NCBI GenBank assembly: GCA_018267475.1 | Contig: JAFDYI010000009.1 | Span: 1 to 64,000 of the forward strand | Direction: 5' to 3' | Origin: Bacteroidota bacterium | GTDB lineage: Bacteria > Bacteroidota > Bacteroidia > B-17B0 > Aurantibacillaceae | Length of the DNA: 64,000 nucleotides | Part shown: one piece after another, positions 27,114 through 35,202 of the stretch | Position numbering within the stretch: position 1 is the first letter of the stretch | Layout: each line of letters opens with the position of its first letter | Position numbers and translations under genes: made by a program | Notes under the pieces: model-generated | Database searches by the model: none | What the model saw: only the letters and a program-made list of their open reading frames with translations | What the model was told of the DNA's origin: nothing

Positions 27114-27962
27114 CTATCCTTTTTTCCAATACACAGCTTGTATGTTTTTTTTAGGTACAAGTCCAAATTGTCTGGAATCAATACTGTTACTAAAATTGGT
27201 TCCTACTACAAAAAAATAATTTTCCTTAACCACATAATGGTTGGTTTCTTCTTGGTTGATGTATATTTTTCCGTTTTTTAAATCCAATGTATTGTTCTCG
27301 TTTTTTATTAGTTGTTGATATAAAAAAACGGATACGCTGTCAAAACGAAGGGTGTCTCCGGTTTTGGGTATGTATAACTTTCCAAAAAAATCTTTATTCC
27401 ACTTTATTTTTGGGTGATGTGCATAGGTGTTTTCGTCGTAGGTATTGTTTTTTTCTATTTGCTGCTCTATCATTAAATTTTTTCCTTGTAGGGCACGTAT
27501 CTTTTTAGAGGTGGCAGCCACCAAGTAGGCACAGCTATCATCTACCAAATAACGATCTTCAAATTTTTCTTGTTCAAAAAGTACGGTATCTTTTTGTTGT
27601 TTAAATTTTAGTACGTAGTTGCGAAGTAAAAAGGGGTTGATGTCTGTCTTTTGGTTGTTTACGTATATAAAAGCGGAATCTATCCACAGGGTGTCGCCTC
27701 CGGTAGCTACTACTTGTTTAAAGCAAGAAACAGCATCGGTGTCGTTTATGCGTACCCAAACAATATCGTTTTTATATATTTTGTTGTATAAAAAATGGAG
27801 GGGGCGAACCCATGCTATATGGCCTTTTTTCAATAAAGGCAACATAGAGGAGCTGTTTATTTTTACGACATCAAGTACAAAAGTTTTTATTAAAACAAAA
27901 AACAAGAAACCCAGTATGGCTGAGGTTGCAAGAAGCCTTATCTTGTTTTTTTTAGGACTCAT
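27114..27962 (-). CDS. lepB: Signal peptidase I paralogue (second copy)
   Basis: A 282-residue S26 signal peptidase from the ATG at 27962, which overlaps the stop of the upstream lepB by 4 bases; a longer upstream start is rejected. One membrane segment (about 9-30) is followed by the catalytic S39 in NSSSMLPLL, the general-base lysine in CFKQVVATGGD, and the C-terminal box NSIDSRQFGLVP. All catalytic elements are present, but the sequence between is diverged. It probably cleaves signal peptides in the inner membrane with altered specificity. Two such genes in tandem are not rare in Bacteroidota. Confidence 0.88.
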   Translation of the reverse strand: MSPKKNKIRLLATSAILGFLFFVLIKTFVLDVVKINSSSMLPLLKKGHIAWVRPLHFLYNKIYKNDIVWVRINDTDAVSCFKQVVATGGDTLWIDSAFIYVNNQKTDINPFLLRNYVLKFKQQKDTVLFEQEKFEDRYLVDDSCAYLVAATSKKIRALQGKNLMIEQQIEKNNTYDENTYAHHPKIKWNKDFFGKLYIPKTGDTLRFDSVSVFLYQQLIKNENNTLDLKNGKIYINQEETNHYVVKENYFFVVGTNFSNSIDSRQFGLVPKKNIQAVYWKKG

Positions 27963-29686
27963 GTGCTGGGTGTTTTTTTGTTTTTCCGTTTTTTGTATTG
28001 GCTGTACGCTACCCACAGCCCAATAATGCCGAACACATACAGGTAATGCGATTTAGAGATGCCATCATCGGTAACGGTGGTAAAGAATCGTTCCCAGCGG
28101 TATTTACCCTCTTTGCTGTTTTTAAATAAAGAAGAAACAATACCCTTACCGGATACGGTGTTTTTATCGCCATCTTTTATGCTAAGCCAAATAAAAACGG
28201 GTTTGCCTACCACGTGGTCAAAAGGTACAAAACCCCACGAGCGTGAGTCGGCGCTGTTGTGGCGGTTATCGCCCATCATAAAATAGTAATCTTGTTTAAA
28301 AGTGTATGTGCGAGCTTCTTTATCATTAATAAAAATTTTTCCATTTTTTATCTCTAATTTGTTTTGGTCGTACACTTCTATTACACGGCTGTACAAGCAT
28401 ATATTAGAAGTATCTATGTTTACGGTAGCTCCTTGCTGGGGTAGGGTAAGGGGGCCAAAGTTGTCGTTATTCCACGGGTAATGTGCGCTGTGAGGAAAAA
28501 TATGAGCGTCGTATTCGCCTGCGGGATAATTCATTTTTAGTACGGATATCACACCTTGTATGCTCTGTACTCGTTGTGCTACATCGGTTGGCATGTTTAG
28601 CATATACTCCATAGTGTCTCCTTTTATATCGCGCAAAAAAGCTTCGCCTACATAAATATCTAATTTATCCAGCAAAGCTTCGTTAGGGATAAACTGCCCG
28701 TTGTACGAGCCAAACATAGGACCTATGGTTTTTACAAAATAAAAATGCTGAGCATGAGTGGGGGTAGGTATGTGCTTGTCGTTAATGTATAGTTCGCCGT
28801 CTTTTAGTTGCAGTTTATCTCCGGCAATAGCCACGCAGCGTTTTACATAAAACTCGCGTTTATCTACCGGGCGCGCTACTATGGCTCCTACGGGGTGGTC
28901 GCTGCCATCTATCACAAAGTCGGGGTTGTGCAGGTTGTTGTAGCCATAGGTTCTCTCTAAATCGTAGTAGCTGCGGTCTTGCGCTCCTACGGCAACGGTG
29001 TCCCCGTCGGGATAGTTGAACACTACTATATCCCCGTTGTGAGGCTTTCCTAAGCCGGGCAGGCGCAGGTAGGGTAGTTTTATCCACTCTAAATAGGCTT
29101 TGGTAGTAGTGGAAAAAGGCATGGTGTGGTGCGCAAACGGAAAGGCAATAGGGGTTTGGGGTACTTTAGCCCCATAACTAAATTTATTTACAAATAAAAA
29201 ATCGCCTACCATTAATGATTTTTCTAAAGAGGAGGTGGGTATGGTAAAGGCTTCCAGAAAAAAAGTGCGTATCACAGAGGCCGCTATCACGGCAAACAAT
29301 AAAGGATCTACCCAGTTTTTTATGAATGGAATTTCTTTTCCTTTAATATCTTCTACTCCTGTACATTTTGAATTTTTATCAAAACCTATGTATAGGATAT
29401 ATACAAAAGAAAAAAAGGAGGCAAGAATCAAATCTTGCGATTTTCTTTTACCAAAATACCGGGCTAAATTAAAAGCTAAAATGCCGTACATTAAGATATT
29501 GACACCCGGTACAATCATCAGCAAAAACCACCATCTGGGTTTTTCTATTAGTTTAAAGGCTTCGTAGTAATTATAAAAAGGTACAAACGCTTTCCATGCC
29601 GCTATGTTTGTTTTTTCAAAACATTTGTAAAGCCCTACCCAAGATAGCAGCACAAGAAGTAAAAAGATGAGGTTCCCTATATACAT
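27959..29686 (-). CDS. lepB: Signal peptidase I
   Basis: A 575-residue signal peptidase, much longer than E. coli LepB. The N-terminal 110 residues contain four hydrophobic segments of a DUF5684-type domain. The peptidase begins with the catalytic S153 in IPTSSLEKSL (usual Met replaced by Leu), continues with the lysine in YVKRCVAIAGD, and ends with GDNRHNSADSRSWGFVP. A long insertion lies between the two catalytic boxes and another membrane segment near the C-terminus. It removes signal peptides from exported proteins. Confidence 0.94.
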   Translation of the reverse strand: MYIGNLIFLLLVLLSWVGLYKCFEKTNIAAWKAFVPFYNYYEAFKLIEKPRWWFLLMIVPGVNILMYGILAFNLARYFGKRKSQDLILASFFSFVYILYIGFDKNSKCTGVEDIKGKEIPFIKNWVDPLLFAVIAASVIRTFFLEAFTIPTSSLEKSLMVGDFLFVNKFSYGAKVPQTPIAFPFAHHTMPFSTTTKAYLEWIKLPYLRLPGLGKPHNGDIVVFNYPDGDTVAVGAQDRSYYDLERTYGYNNLHNPDFVIDGSDHPVGAIVARPVDKREFYVKRCVAIAGDKLQLKDGELYINDKHIPTPTHAQHFYFVKTIGPMFGSYNGQFIPNEALLDKLDIYVGEAFLRDIKGDTMEYMLNMPTDVAQRVQSIQGVISVLKMNYPAGEYDAHIFPHSAHYPWNNDNFGPLTLPQQGATVNIDTSNICLYSRVIEVYDQNKLEIKNGKIFINDKEARTYTFKQDYYFMMGDNRHNSADSRSWGFVPFDHVVGKPVFIWLSIKDGDKNTVSGKGIVSSLFKNSKEGKYRWERFFTTVTDDGISKSHYLYVFGIIGLWVAYSQYKKRKNKKTPST

Positions 29687-32309: not shown

Positions 32310-32747
32310 CTACACTTTTATTACTTTATACGTTAGCACCTTTTTGCCTATTACGATGCGTATAAAATAAGTTCCGCTGGTGTAGTTTGCCATATTGATT
32401 TCGTTTTGAGATTGCACGTTTTTTGAAGTGTATAAAACCGTACCTGTTTCATCGGTTACAAAAACCTGAGTTGGCTCCTCGTCTTGTAAGTTGCTAATAG
32501 TTAGCATTACCTTATCTTGCGTGGGGTTGGGGAATACGTTTATACCGTGCTGCATAGCTAAGGTTTGCGTGCTGTCATCTTTAGCTGTTGGTGCCACCTT
32601 TCTTTGCCCTATAGGGCAGCTGGGGCACACGTACAAGCGTCTTTCTGTGCGGTTGCCGTTGGCATCATACACATATTCTATGGTGTTTTGGCTGTAGCTT
32701 TTTGCTACAAATACCATTAGTGCCAGTGTTAAAATTATTTTTTTCAT
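32310..32747 (-). CDS. Small T9SS type A sorting-domain protein (RHS-associated)
   Basis: A 145-residue secreted protein. The signal peptide ends near residue 20 (SYSQ). Next is one RHS/YD-like motif, YVYDANGNRTERR, and a CPSCP pair. The rest is a type A T9SS sorting tail (VFPNPTQDKVMLTI ... GTYFIRIVIGKKVLTYKVIKV), which directs export and surface linkage. Small proteins of this sort often stand next to RHS-repeat genes in Bacteroidota, and the RHS fragment here lies 0.9 kb upstream on the same strand. The function is unknown. Confidence 0.82.
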   Translation of the reverse strand: MKKIILTLALMVFVAKSYSQNTIEYVYDANGNRTERRLYVCPSCPIGQRKVAPTAKDDSTQTLAMQHGINVFPNPTQDKVMLTISNLQDEEPTQVFVTDETGTVLYTSKNVQSQNEINMANYTSGTYFIRIVIGKKVLTYKVIKV

Positions 32748-32798: not shown

Positions 32799-32836
32799 CC
32801 GGTAGCCGAAAAATCAGCCGTACCGGAAGACATGCT
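32799..32836. repeat. 38-bp direct repeat, copy 1 (RHS debris)
   Basis: Identical over 38 bases to 34403-34440 inside the RHS gene, where it encodes SMSSGTADFSATG on the minus strand. Here it lies in non-coding DNA between the small T9SS gene and the lipoprotein, so it is a leftover of an older RHS copy. Confidence 0.85.
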
Positions 32837-32997: not shown

Positions 32998-33660
32998 TTA
33001 GGGTTCTGTTGTATTTATTGTACCGGGTAATTCCGAACATTTAGTTACTTTACTTAATAGCTCGTTCAGCTTATCAGATTCGCTTAGTTTGATTTCTCGC
33101 AAGGTGTCATTTTGAACTTGAACCATAAAGACACTATTTTCCCAAGTCTTATTTTTACCTAAACTCCGTTGAACCCATATACAGCTTTCTTCTCCTAAAC
33201 AATTTCCGTAAAACATTCTGTTTTCATAAACTAATTCATTGGTTAAATAATCTTCTTCTTTCCCGGGATATGAGTATCGGAACTGCTGACCGTTCGCCTT
33301 CATTGCTCCATCGCTTGGCGACCAAATATAGATTGATATATTTTCATCACAATTTTTGCAACTTCTTCCCGATAAAATAAAGTACGGTATCTTATTTTTC
33401 GTTTTTAAGTACCCAACATATTTTAAATCAAATAAACTTGTTTCAAAACTTCTACCGTTATTAAACACAAGTGTTTTACCTTCTATTTTAGCTATTTCCC
33501 ACTCATTTAGACTATCTTCTGTAGTAGTGGATATGCTACTGTCTATGCTTGAAGCTGTAGCGTTACTATCAGAAGTTGAAACCTCTTTTTTTTGCTCATT
33601 ATTTAAACAGCTAATAAAAAGAGTTGATAGCATGATTCCAAAAATGATAATCTTTTTCAT
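32998..33660 (-). CDS. Lipoprotein, candidate immunity protein for the RHS peptidase toxin
   Basis: A 220-residue lipoprotein: MKKIIIFGIML, then the lipobox LFISC with Cys at 18, a Ser/Thr/Asp-rich linker to about 50, and a compact domain with two cysteine pairs (SCKNC; GNCLGEESC). I recognise no family. Its ATG follows the RHS gene's stop codon with no spacing, the usual placing of an immunity gene behind an RHS toxin tip. A lipoprotein would sit in the periplasm, where a cell-wall peptidase toxin would act. The gene is visibly richer in A+T than its neighbours. Immunity function is inference. Confidence 0.65.
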   Translation of the reverse strand: MKKIIIFGIMLSTLFISCLNNEQKKEVSTSDSNATASSIDSSISTTTEDSLNEWEIAKIEGKTLVFNNGRSFETSLFDLKYVGYLKTKNKIPYFILSGRSCKNCDENISIYIWSPSDGAMKANGQQFRYSYPGKEEDYLTNELVYENRMFYGNCLGEESCIWVQRSLGKNKTWENSVFMVQVQNDTLREIKLSESDKLNELLSKVTKCSELPGTINTTEP

Positions 33661-35091
33661 TTACTTAAATGGAGAATATTGATTTTTAGTTACTGTACCA
33701 TCAATAATTAACGGTGTGTAGAGTAAAAACAAATTATTGTGAGTAGGGTTTAAATCAAGATGTACATGCGGTCTTAACGCACCAACAGCATCTATGCTTG
33801 GATAATATATCACCGTATTAAATAATGCAGATTGATTTGCCAAAATAGAAACTTGCCGATTGGTCATTCCTTGTATTTTTATATCAACTGCATCACCATA
33901 TAAATGCCTACTTGCATTTGCTCCTCCTGCTGCTTTATTACGAACTGCTGACCTGTCTCCAGAGGTTACATCAATAGGCTGCCCTGCATATTGAGAAAAT
34001 TGTAACAGCTTTCCTTGCAATGCTTCTGAAGACACGTTATAACCATTATAATTAACTTGTCCGGCATACCCCCCACCACTTTGGGCACTCCCCCTTTTTT
34101 TGTTGGGTGGCCGCCTATCGCCATCACCCGCATTGCTTGTTCCTGCCATACTTGAAAATTCGGGTGCTTCCATTTTTTCTCCGGCATTAGCTACAAATGC
34201 TGTGTGCGTGTGTGCGAAGCCATCACTAAAATAGGCTATAGAGCCGGTGTAGGTTTTGTAATGCCCCCACTCACCTGTTTTTTGATTGTAGTGTTGGGCG
34301 TAGTAGGCAAGGTAGTTGCTTTTGTTCGTGCTGTTTTCTTGTGCCTTATCCCAGTACGCTTGCGATAGCTCGGCATACATATAATGGTTGCGGTATCCGG
34401 GCCCGGTAGCCGAAAAATCAGCCGTACCGGAAGACATGCTGGTGCTTCCACCCGTTAAAACGCCTTCGCTGCTATAGCCACTGGGGTCGGCGTATTTTAG
34501 GGGGTTGTTTAGGCAATAGGTGTAGCGGTTGTAGCTTTGGGTGTTGGTAGGGTATTGCACTTCATTGTCAGCACTTAGCATACGGGCATTTAAGGGGTCG
34601 TACATGCGGCCGTTCATATTTATTAGGCCAAATTGCGGCAAATACTCGTGCCCGGTATAGCCCCTTGTAAGCCAGGCGGGCAAGGGGTTGGCGGGGGCGG
34701 TGTAGTCCCAGGTTTGGGGGTTGCGGGGGCGCCCCCAGGGGTCAAAATCTTGTTGGGCAAAAAGGGTTCCGTATTTGTCGGTTAGGGTATTCATACTGCC
34801 TAAATGGTCGGTATAAATATAGTACAAATTTTTGTTTCCGTTGTCATTTACATATAGGGCGCAGAGGCCGCCGGGGCTGTTTAGGTAAGTAGCTTCACGG
34901 TGTTGGTTGTTGGGCAGTACTTCGCTTTCGTATTCGTTTAGGTAGTACTTGGTGCTTGTTGTGTTTCCGCTTGCATCGTGCAGCTCGCCTTTTATGCGTT
35001 GTTTATCGGCTCCGTAGGTAATATCAAGTTCGTTTATAGGCGTATTGGTAGCGGGGCAATTCCAGCTTAATGAAGGCGAAAAAAATATCCA
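33661..35091 (-). pseudogene. 5'-truncated RHS protein with C-terminal M15 peptidase domain
   Basis: The frame is open from just after a TAA (35092-35094) to the stop at 33661, 476 codons without a proper start. TTG at 34825-34827 is the first possible start. The beginning reads like an RHS protein interior (ITYGADKQRIKGELHDASG), then the RHS core, IYTDHLGSMNTLTD ... PWGRPRNP ... YDPLNARMLSADNEVQ ... LKYADPSGYS. The variable tip holds a Peptidase_M15-like domain: TSGDRSAVRNKAAGG, SRHLYGDAVDI and RPHVHLDL supply the His, Asp and His zinc ligands of murein/D-Ala-D-Ala peptidases. The 5' part of the RHS gene is missing, so it looks like an orphan toxin cassette. Confidence 0.85.
34403..34440. 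repeat. 38-bp direct repeat, copy 2 (inside the RHS gene)
   Basis: Same 38 bases as 32799-32836. It falls just after the conserved DPSGYS at the end of the RHS core, where toxin tips begin to vary. Confidence 0.85.
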
Positions 35092-35202
35092 TTAAAAGGT
35101 TGTAATTCCATTTCAGAATGGCAGCCCATGGCTATAAAGTCAATTATCTATTTACGCATAAACCGTAACTTAGTTTTTTTACTTTTTCATTCTGCAGGAA
35201 AA

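Follow-up and report, generated by a model that had tools for sequence, protein, structure and literature searches.

The RHS fragment and its neighbouring genes

The window, by which we mean the whole 64,000-nucleotide stretch of DNA that was analysed, carries on its reverse strand the 3' part of an RHS gene, a lipoprotein gene and a small gene for a protein with a type IX secretion sorting domain (Table 1). The RHS frame has no internal stop codon, and its residues 117-205 match the Rhs_assc_core profile (TIGR03696, E 5e-13), beyond which lies a variable tip, as in the RHS polymorphic toxins. The full-length shell and the secretion signal of those toxins are missing, and the frame is a fragment that is cut at 35091. 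An earlier examination of the letters and open reading frames (the sequence-only reading) had described a 476-codon RHS frame that keeps the end of the core, and the uninterrupted frame and the core match bear this out. The tip is unlike those on other RHS genes of the same genus. GC content is highest in the core (0.496) and drops in the M15 tip (0.353) and the lipoprotein gene (0.329), with 0.395 for the whole window; the drop fits a separate origin.

The ATG of the lipoprotein gene at 33660 is the first base past the RHS stop codon (33663-33661), and the product begins MKKIIIFGIMLSTLFISC, in which residues 14-18 (LFISC) form a lipobox as judged by inspection. The sequence-only reading was therefore right to place an A+T-rich lipoprotein gene directly at the RHS stop. 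Searches with this protein found no sequence relatives in the PDB and no match among plasmids, and its single-sequence structure model was poor (mean pLDDT 45.9), so that it was left out of the fold search. Elsewhere in the window, at 27114-29686 on the same strand, two adjoining and slightly overlapping genes resemble signal peptidase I.

Table 1. Features of the RHS locus in window coordinates
Feature	Position	Strand	Evidence
145-aa protein with signal peptide, one YD (RHS) repeat and type IX secretion sorting domain	32310..32747	-	PF18962; YD match; RHS neighbours
38-bp repeat, copy 2, some 160 bp past the lipoprotein gene on its downstream side, likely recombination scar	32799..32836	-	Exact 38/38 match
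220-aa lipoprotein, candidate periplasmic immunity protein	32998..33660	-	Lipobox by inspection; abuts RHS stop; G225 homologue
5'-truncated RHS frame, 476 codons, core end and variable tip	33661..35091	-	Open frame; TIGR03696; first in-frame start within core
Peptidase_M15_3 putative toxin tip, SxHxxGxAxD and HxH zinc motifs	33661..34059	-	PF08291; alignment; 1lbu profile match; Foldseek
38-bp repeat, copy 1, in frame soon after the RHS core end	34403..34440	-	Exact 38/38 match
135-bp segment, 99% copy at G000:C34:113820-113955, marks the RHS 5' cut	35066..35200	-	Genome comparison

The M15 domain of the tip

Residues 359-426 of the RHS frame match Peptidase_M15_3 (PF08291) with an E-value of 4.5e-12 and 46.5 bits against a cut-off of 23.2. 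The two zinc motifs, SRHLYGDAVDI (33912-33880) and RPHVHLDL (33774-33751), supply the ligands H396, D403 and H444, all of them invariant when the tip is aligned with 18 M15 relatives from other phyla. In the PDB, a profile built from the tip matched 1lbu, a zinc DD-peptidase (E 1.9e-6). The structure model was only moderate (mean pLDDT 59.7), and the Foldseek E-values were weak; 1lbu nevertheless ranked first (probability 1.00), followed by Ply500 (0.97) and then by hedgehog, LdcB and VanY chains, most of the top matches lying within the single M15/hedgehog clan. The sequence-only reading had recognized an M15 peptidase by its three zinc ligands and proposed a profile search for the fold; both the domain search and the 1lbu match recover it, in agreement with the conserved ligands and the fold comparison.

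M15_3 domains are common among cell-wall enzymes. With the whole tip as query, a first scan of our genome collection returned no relatives, while the M15 part alone returned 80 loci, mostly in Actinobacteria and many of them stand-alone, which served solely as M15 relatives. Matches in two further genomes (G023 and G417) were set aside, the proteins being stand-alone or unrelated. This abundance of stand-alone relatives would suit a housekeeping or self-remodelling peptidase that became joined to an RHS remnant by accident, but the source genome holds no other M15_3 gene, and both here and in a distant genome (G225, below) the domain takes up precisely the place of an RHS tip. We regard such an accident as very improbable.

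Conservation of the tip and the lipoprotein

Among 87 genomes of the family, no clear relative of either the tip or the lipoprotein was detected outside the source genome, one weak M15 match apart. A search of 395 genomes of the phylum identified a homologue of the lipoprotein (E 1.4e-30) in G225, a distant member, where it is secreted and encoded 17 bp downstream of an intact 459-aa secreted mini-RHS protein with an M15 tip; the corresponding gap in the window is 0 bp. Identity is 47% between the tips and 37-39% between the lipoproteins, but the RHS cores have diverged and are of different types, which indicates that tip and lipoprotein moved as a unit. A profile of the tip, run against 395 genomes of the class and the 395 of the phylum, gave strong matches only in the window genome and G225, with one weak match in G417 (4.8e-8). 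A homologue of the lipoprotein is thus the next gene after each known tip of this M15 subfamily (two of two genomes), G225 being the only independent pair found. The earlier proposal that the lipoprotein is the candidate immunity partner of the tip gains from this pairing, which is kept despite the divergent core, and a putative tip/immunity module is the best reading of the two genes from their sequences.

In G225, an array (L101 113-7926) comprises three mini-RHS genes that share a near-identical N-terminal and core part and differ in their tips, with a small candidate immunity gene after each.

A profile search of the 395 class genomes added five relatives of the lipoprotein. That of G730 lies three genes downstream of an RHS toxin gene whose tip is DUF5675, that of G572 is at a contig end, and three (G738, G716 and G780) have no RHS gene nearby, among them the closest relative of all (G738, 41%). 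The cysteine of the lipobox has a counterpart in G738 and G716, and the G225 protein has an ordinary signal peptide in its place. The sequence-only reading would have abandoned the immunity role had homologues occurred away from RHS tips. Half of the six relatives do lack an RHS gene nearby; those of G225 and G730 follow one. The former raise the alternative of a general envelope protein without any link to immunity, placed next to the tip by chance. We think this quite unlikely, because the lipoprotein follows both known tips of the subfamily in distant genomes and behind different RHS cores, a third relative is found behind a different RHS toxin, and stand-alone immunity genes are described as common and well known in RHS systems in the relevant passages of PMC8125069. 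The family may nevertheless have had an unrelated role ancestrally.

Truncation and repeats

The first in-frame start codon of the RHS frame is a TTG at residue 89, within the core, so that the fragment is unable to encode a signal peptide. RHS-like sequence starts where the copied 135-bp segment stops. The C34 copy of this segment corresponds to L008 1501-1636, and a third, partial copy is found near the end of contig C33; groEL lies 64 bp further upstream of the segment in the window and has a strong terminator at 35238-35205. Promoter-like sites occur no more often than they do in shuffled sequence. The missing 5' part, start and promoter reported by the sequence-only reading are accordingly confirmed. 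Taken together, the missing start, the copied 135 bp at the cut and the groEL terminator suggest that a rearrangement severed the RHS gene, which is probably not transcribed from upstream. Imperfect terminal inverted repeats, seen by eye, raised the idea that the 135-bp segment came from a mobile element. The C33 copy, however, shares sequence with C34 past the segment end, and this hints rather at a stretch of intergenic DNA that was copied.

The 38-bp repeat has just two copies in the window, and between them lie most of the tip and the entire lipoprotein gene, as would be expected if these had entered, or were able to leave, by recombination. Around the immunity slot of two complete RHS loci of the same genus (genome G062), no direct repeat of at least 16 bp was found. 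Neither the 38-bp repeat nor the 135-bp segment nor the linked gene for the sorting-domain protein had appeared in the sequence-only reading.

Order of genes in RHS loci of the family

The 145-aa product downstream of the lipoprotein matches the type IX sorting domain with an E-value of 5e-12 and the YD repeat weakly, below the cut-off. Fourteen copies of this YD/T9SS gene occur in the family, and for 13 of them the locus includes an RHS gene or fragment, in two cases (G028 and G044) recognized via homology to RHS N-termini; the remaining copy (G043) is at a contig end. Both RHS loci of G062 have the window order of RHS gene, variable small gene and YD/T9SS gene, and so do the complete RHS loci of the genus and family. 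The window lipoprotein thus occupies a variable immunity slot whose genes elsewhere vary and often encode a lipoprotein, and this position also favours its candidate immunity role. The complete RHS protein of G062 has SpvB, TcdB_toxin_midN and RHS domains.

Discussion

Domains, motifs, gene order, a conserved pairing and a truncation can all be observed directly at this locus. They make it probable that the window holds what survives, at the 3' end, of an RHS polymorphic toxin locus with a type IX link, including a silent M15 toxin/lipoprotein immunity cassette. The tip would be a zinc peptidoglycan peptidase whose predicted action is to cleave peptide stems or cross-links in a rival's periplasm, and the lipoprotein would be its cognate immunity protein, retained in the periplasm, where it would block the tip. 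A rearrangement at the copied 135-bp segment probably removed the 5' part of the gene, that is, the signal peptide and most of the shell. The toxin is probably silent now as a result of this loss, and the lipoprotein may still protect against toxin-carrying kin.

The sequence-only reading had likened the locus to orphan toxin tips that recombine with a full-length gene elsewhere. As a usable orphan cassette of this sort, the startless frame would be a reservoir and would gain expression once recombination, at the core or at the 38-bp repeat, had joined it to a full-length RHS gene. Such recombination of an orphan rhs fragment with an upstream full-length rhs is described in Salmonella Typhimurium (Koskiniemi 2014, PMC3967940), and the anatomy is comparable, as both fragments lack a start and an export signal and have a linked immunity gene; that the 38-bp repeat brackets tip and lipoprotein is also in keeping with this mechanism. 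The window differs in that its tip is a cell-wall peptidase, and above all in the partner. Whereas Salmonella has a joinable full-length main rhs upstream, no full-length RHS gene with the window core, which the earlier reading had suggested looking for, was found in the 37 contigs of the source genome. The only other RHS cluster, on contig C5, has a core just 40-45% identical and is likewise 5'-truncated, and a missed full-length copy is possible but improbable in an assembly of 37 contigs. We therefore consider a usable orphan cassette unlikely, and on recombination in this genome the sequence-only reading went too far, sound as it is in its main lines; decay of the RHS gene with the cassette left behind, perhaps retained for immunity, is the more economical view.

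The C5 cluster (L005 8011-12446) includes a 549-aa RHS gene that is truncated and weakly similar to Ntox44, as well as short genes for secreted RHS tips with the N-terminal sequence QANEDTVVVKL in common, with candidate immunity genes in between.

Systems of this kind are already known, and what the window adds is an RHS remnant that ends in an M15 tip and has beside it a lipoprotein well supported as a candidate for immunity. No description of an M15-tipped RHS toxin was found in the literature searched, itself an incomplete set. Peptidase M15_3 has a precedent as an antibacterial effector domain in Tpe14 of Acinetobacter baumannii (PMC6833914), but there it is fused to LysM and delivered by a type VI secretion system, whereas here it is an RHS tip. 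Imm65, which accompanies Tox-JAB-1, was called the sole lipoprotein in its collection (Zhang 2012, PMC3482391); going by its description, it resembles the window lipoprotein in bearing a lipobox and belonging to a polymorphic toxin system, and differs in that its partner is a JAB rather than an M15 peptidase. The TANFOR/BaCT toxins of Bacteroidetes (PMC7073777) are likewise polymorphic toxins of this phylum with type IX substrates enriched nearby, but they have a TANFOR domain in place of the RHS shell of the window, and a DNase tip. The M15 peptidase/lipoprotein pair, independently conserved across the phylum, thereby joins the list of candidate cell-wall-targeting RHS tips and immunity proteins, and the locus offers an example of RHS decay that has spared the tip, the candidate immunity gene and the type IX partner gene.

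The linkage of the YD/T9SS gene to RHS genes leads us to a tentative idea, drawn from domain content and gene order, that its product may act as an in-trans adaptor, with the YD repeat docking onto the RHS shell and the sorting domain exporting the toxin via type IX secretion. Under this adaptor idea, and with the same reserve, the C-terminus of the RHS toxin itself would be taken up by the toxin tip. If true, it would offer Bacteroidota a possible route for the export of RHS toxins whose C-terminus is so occupied. Genes with T9SS type A sorting domains adjoining SpvB/TcdB-type Rhs genes have been reported in Apibacter (PMC8125069), and a full RHS protein of the window genus shares both this kind of neighbour and the SpvB and TcdB_toxin_midN domains; the window RHS differs in being truncated. 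The neighbour in the window family also has a YD repeat, a feature that goes unmentioned for Apibacter in the relevant passages of that paper; measured against these passages, what would be new is the YD repeat, together with the mechanism in trans.

Two further features of RHS loci in the family were observed. In several genomes (L140 4116-6197, L148 5289-7193 and similar loci), a protein of 470-690 aa is encoded ahead of the YD/T9SS and RHS genes; it has a conserved C-terminal helix, EELMLYNIELEKRLK, and no Pfam match. The two RHS loci of G062 (L121 and L122) both have radC-like genes, near-identical to each other, and one more common gene at their flanks, as though related mobile elements carried them.
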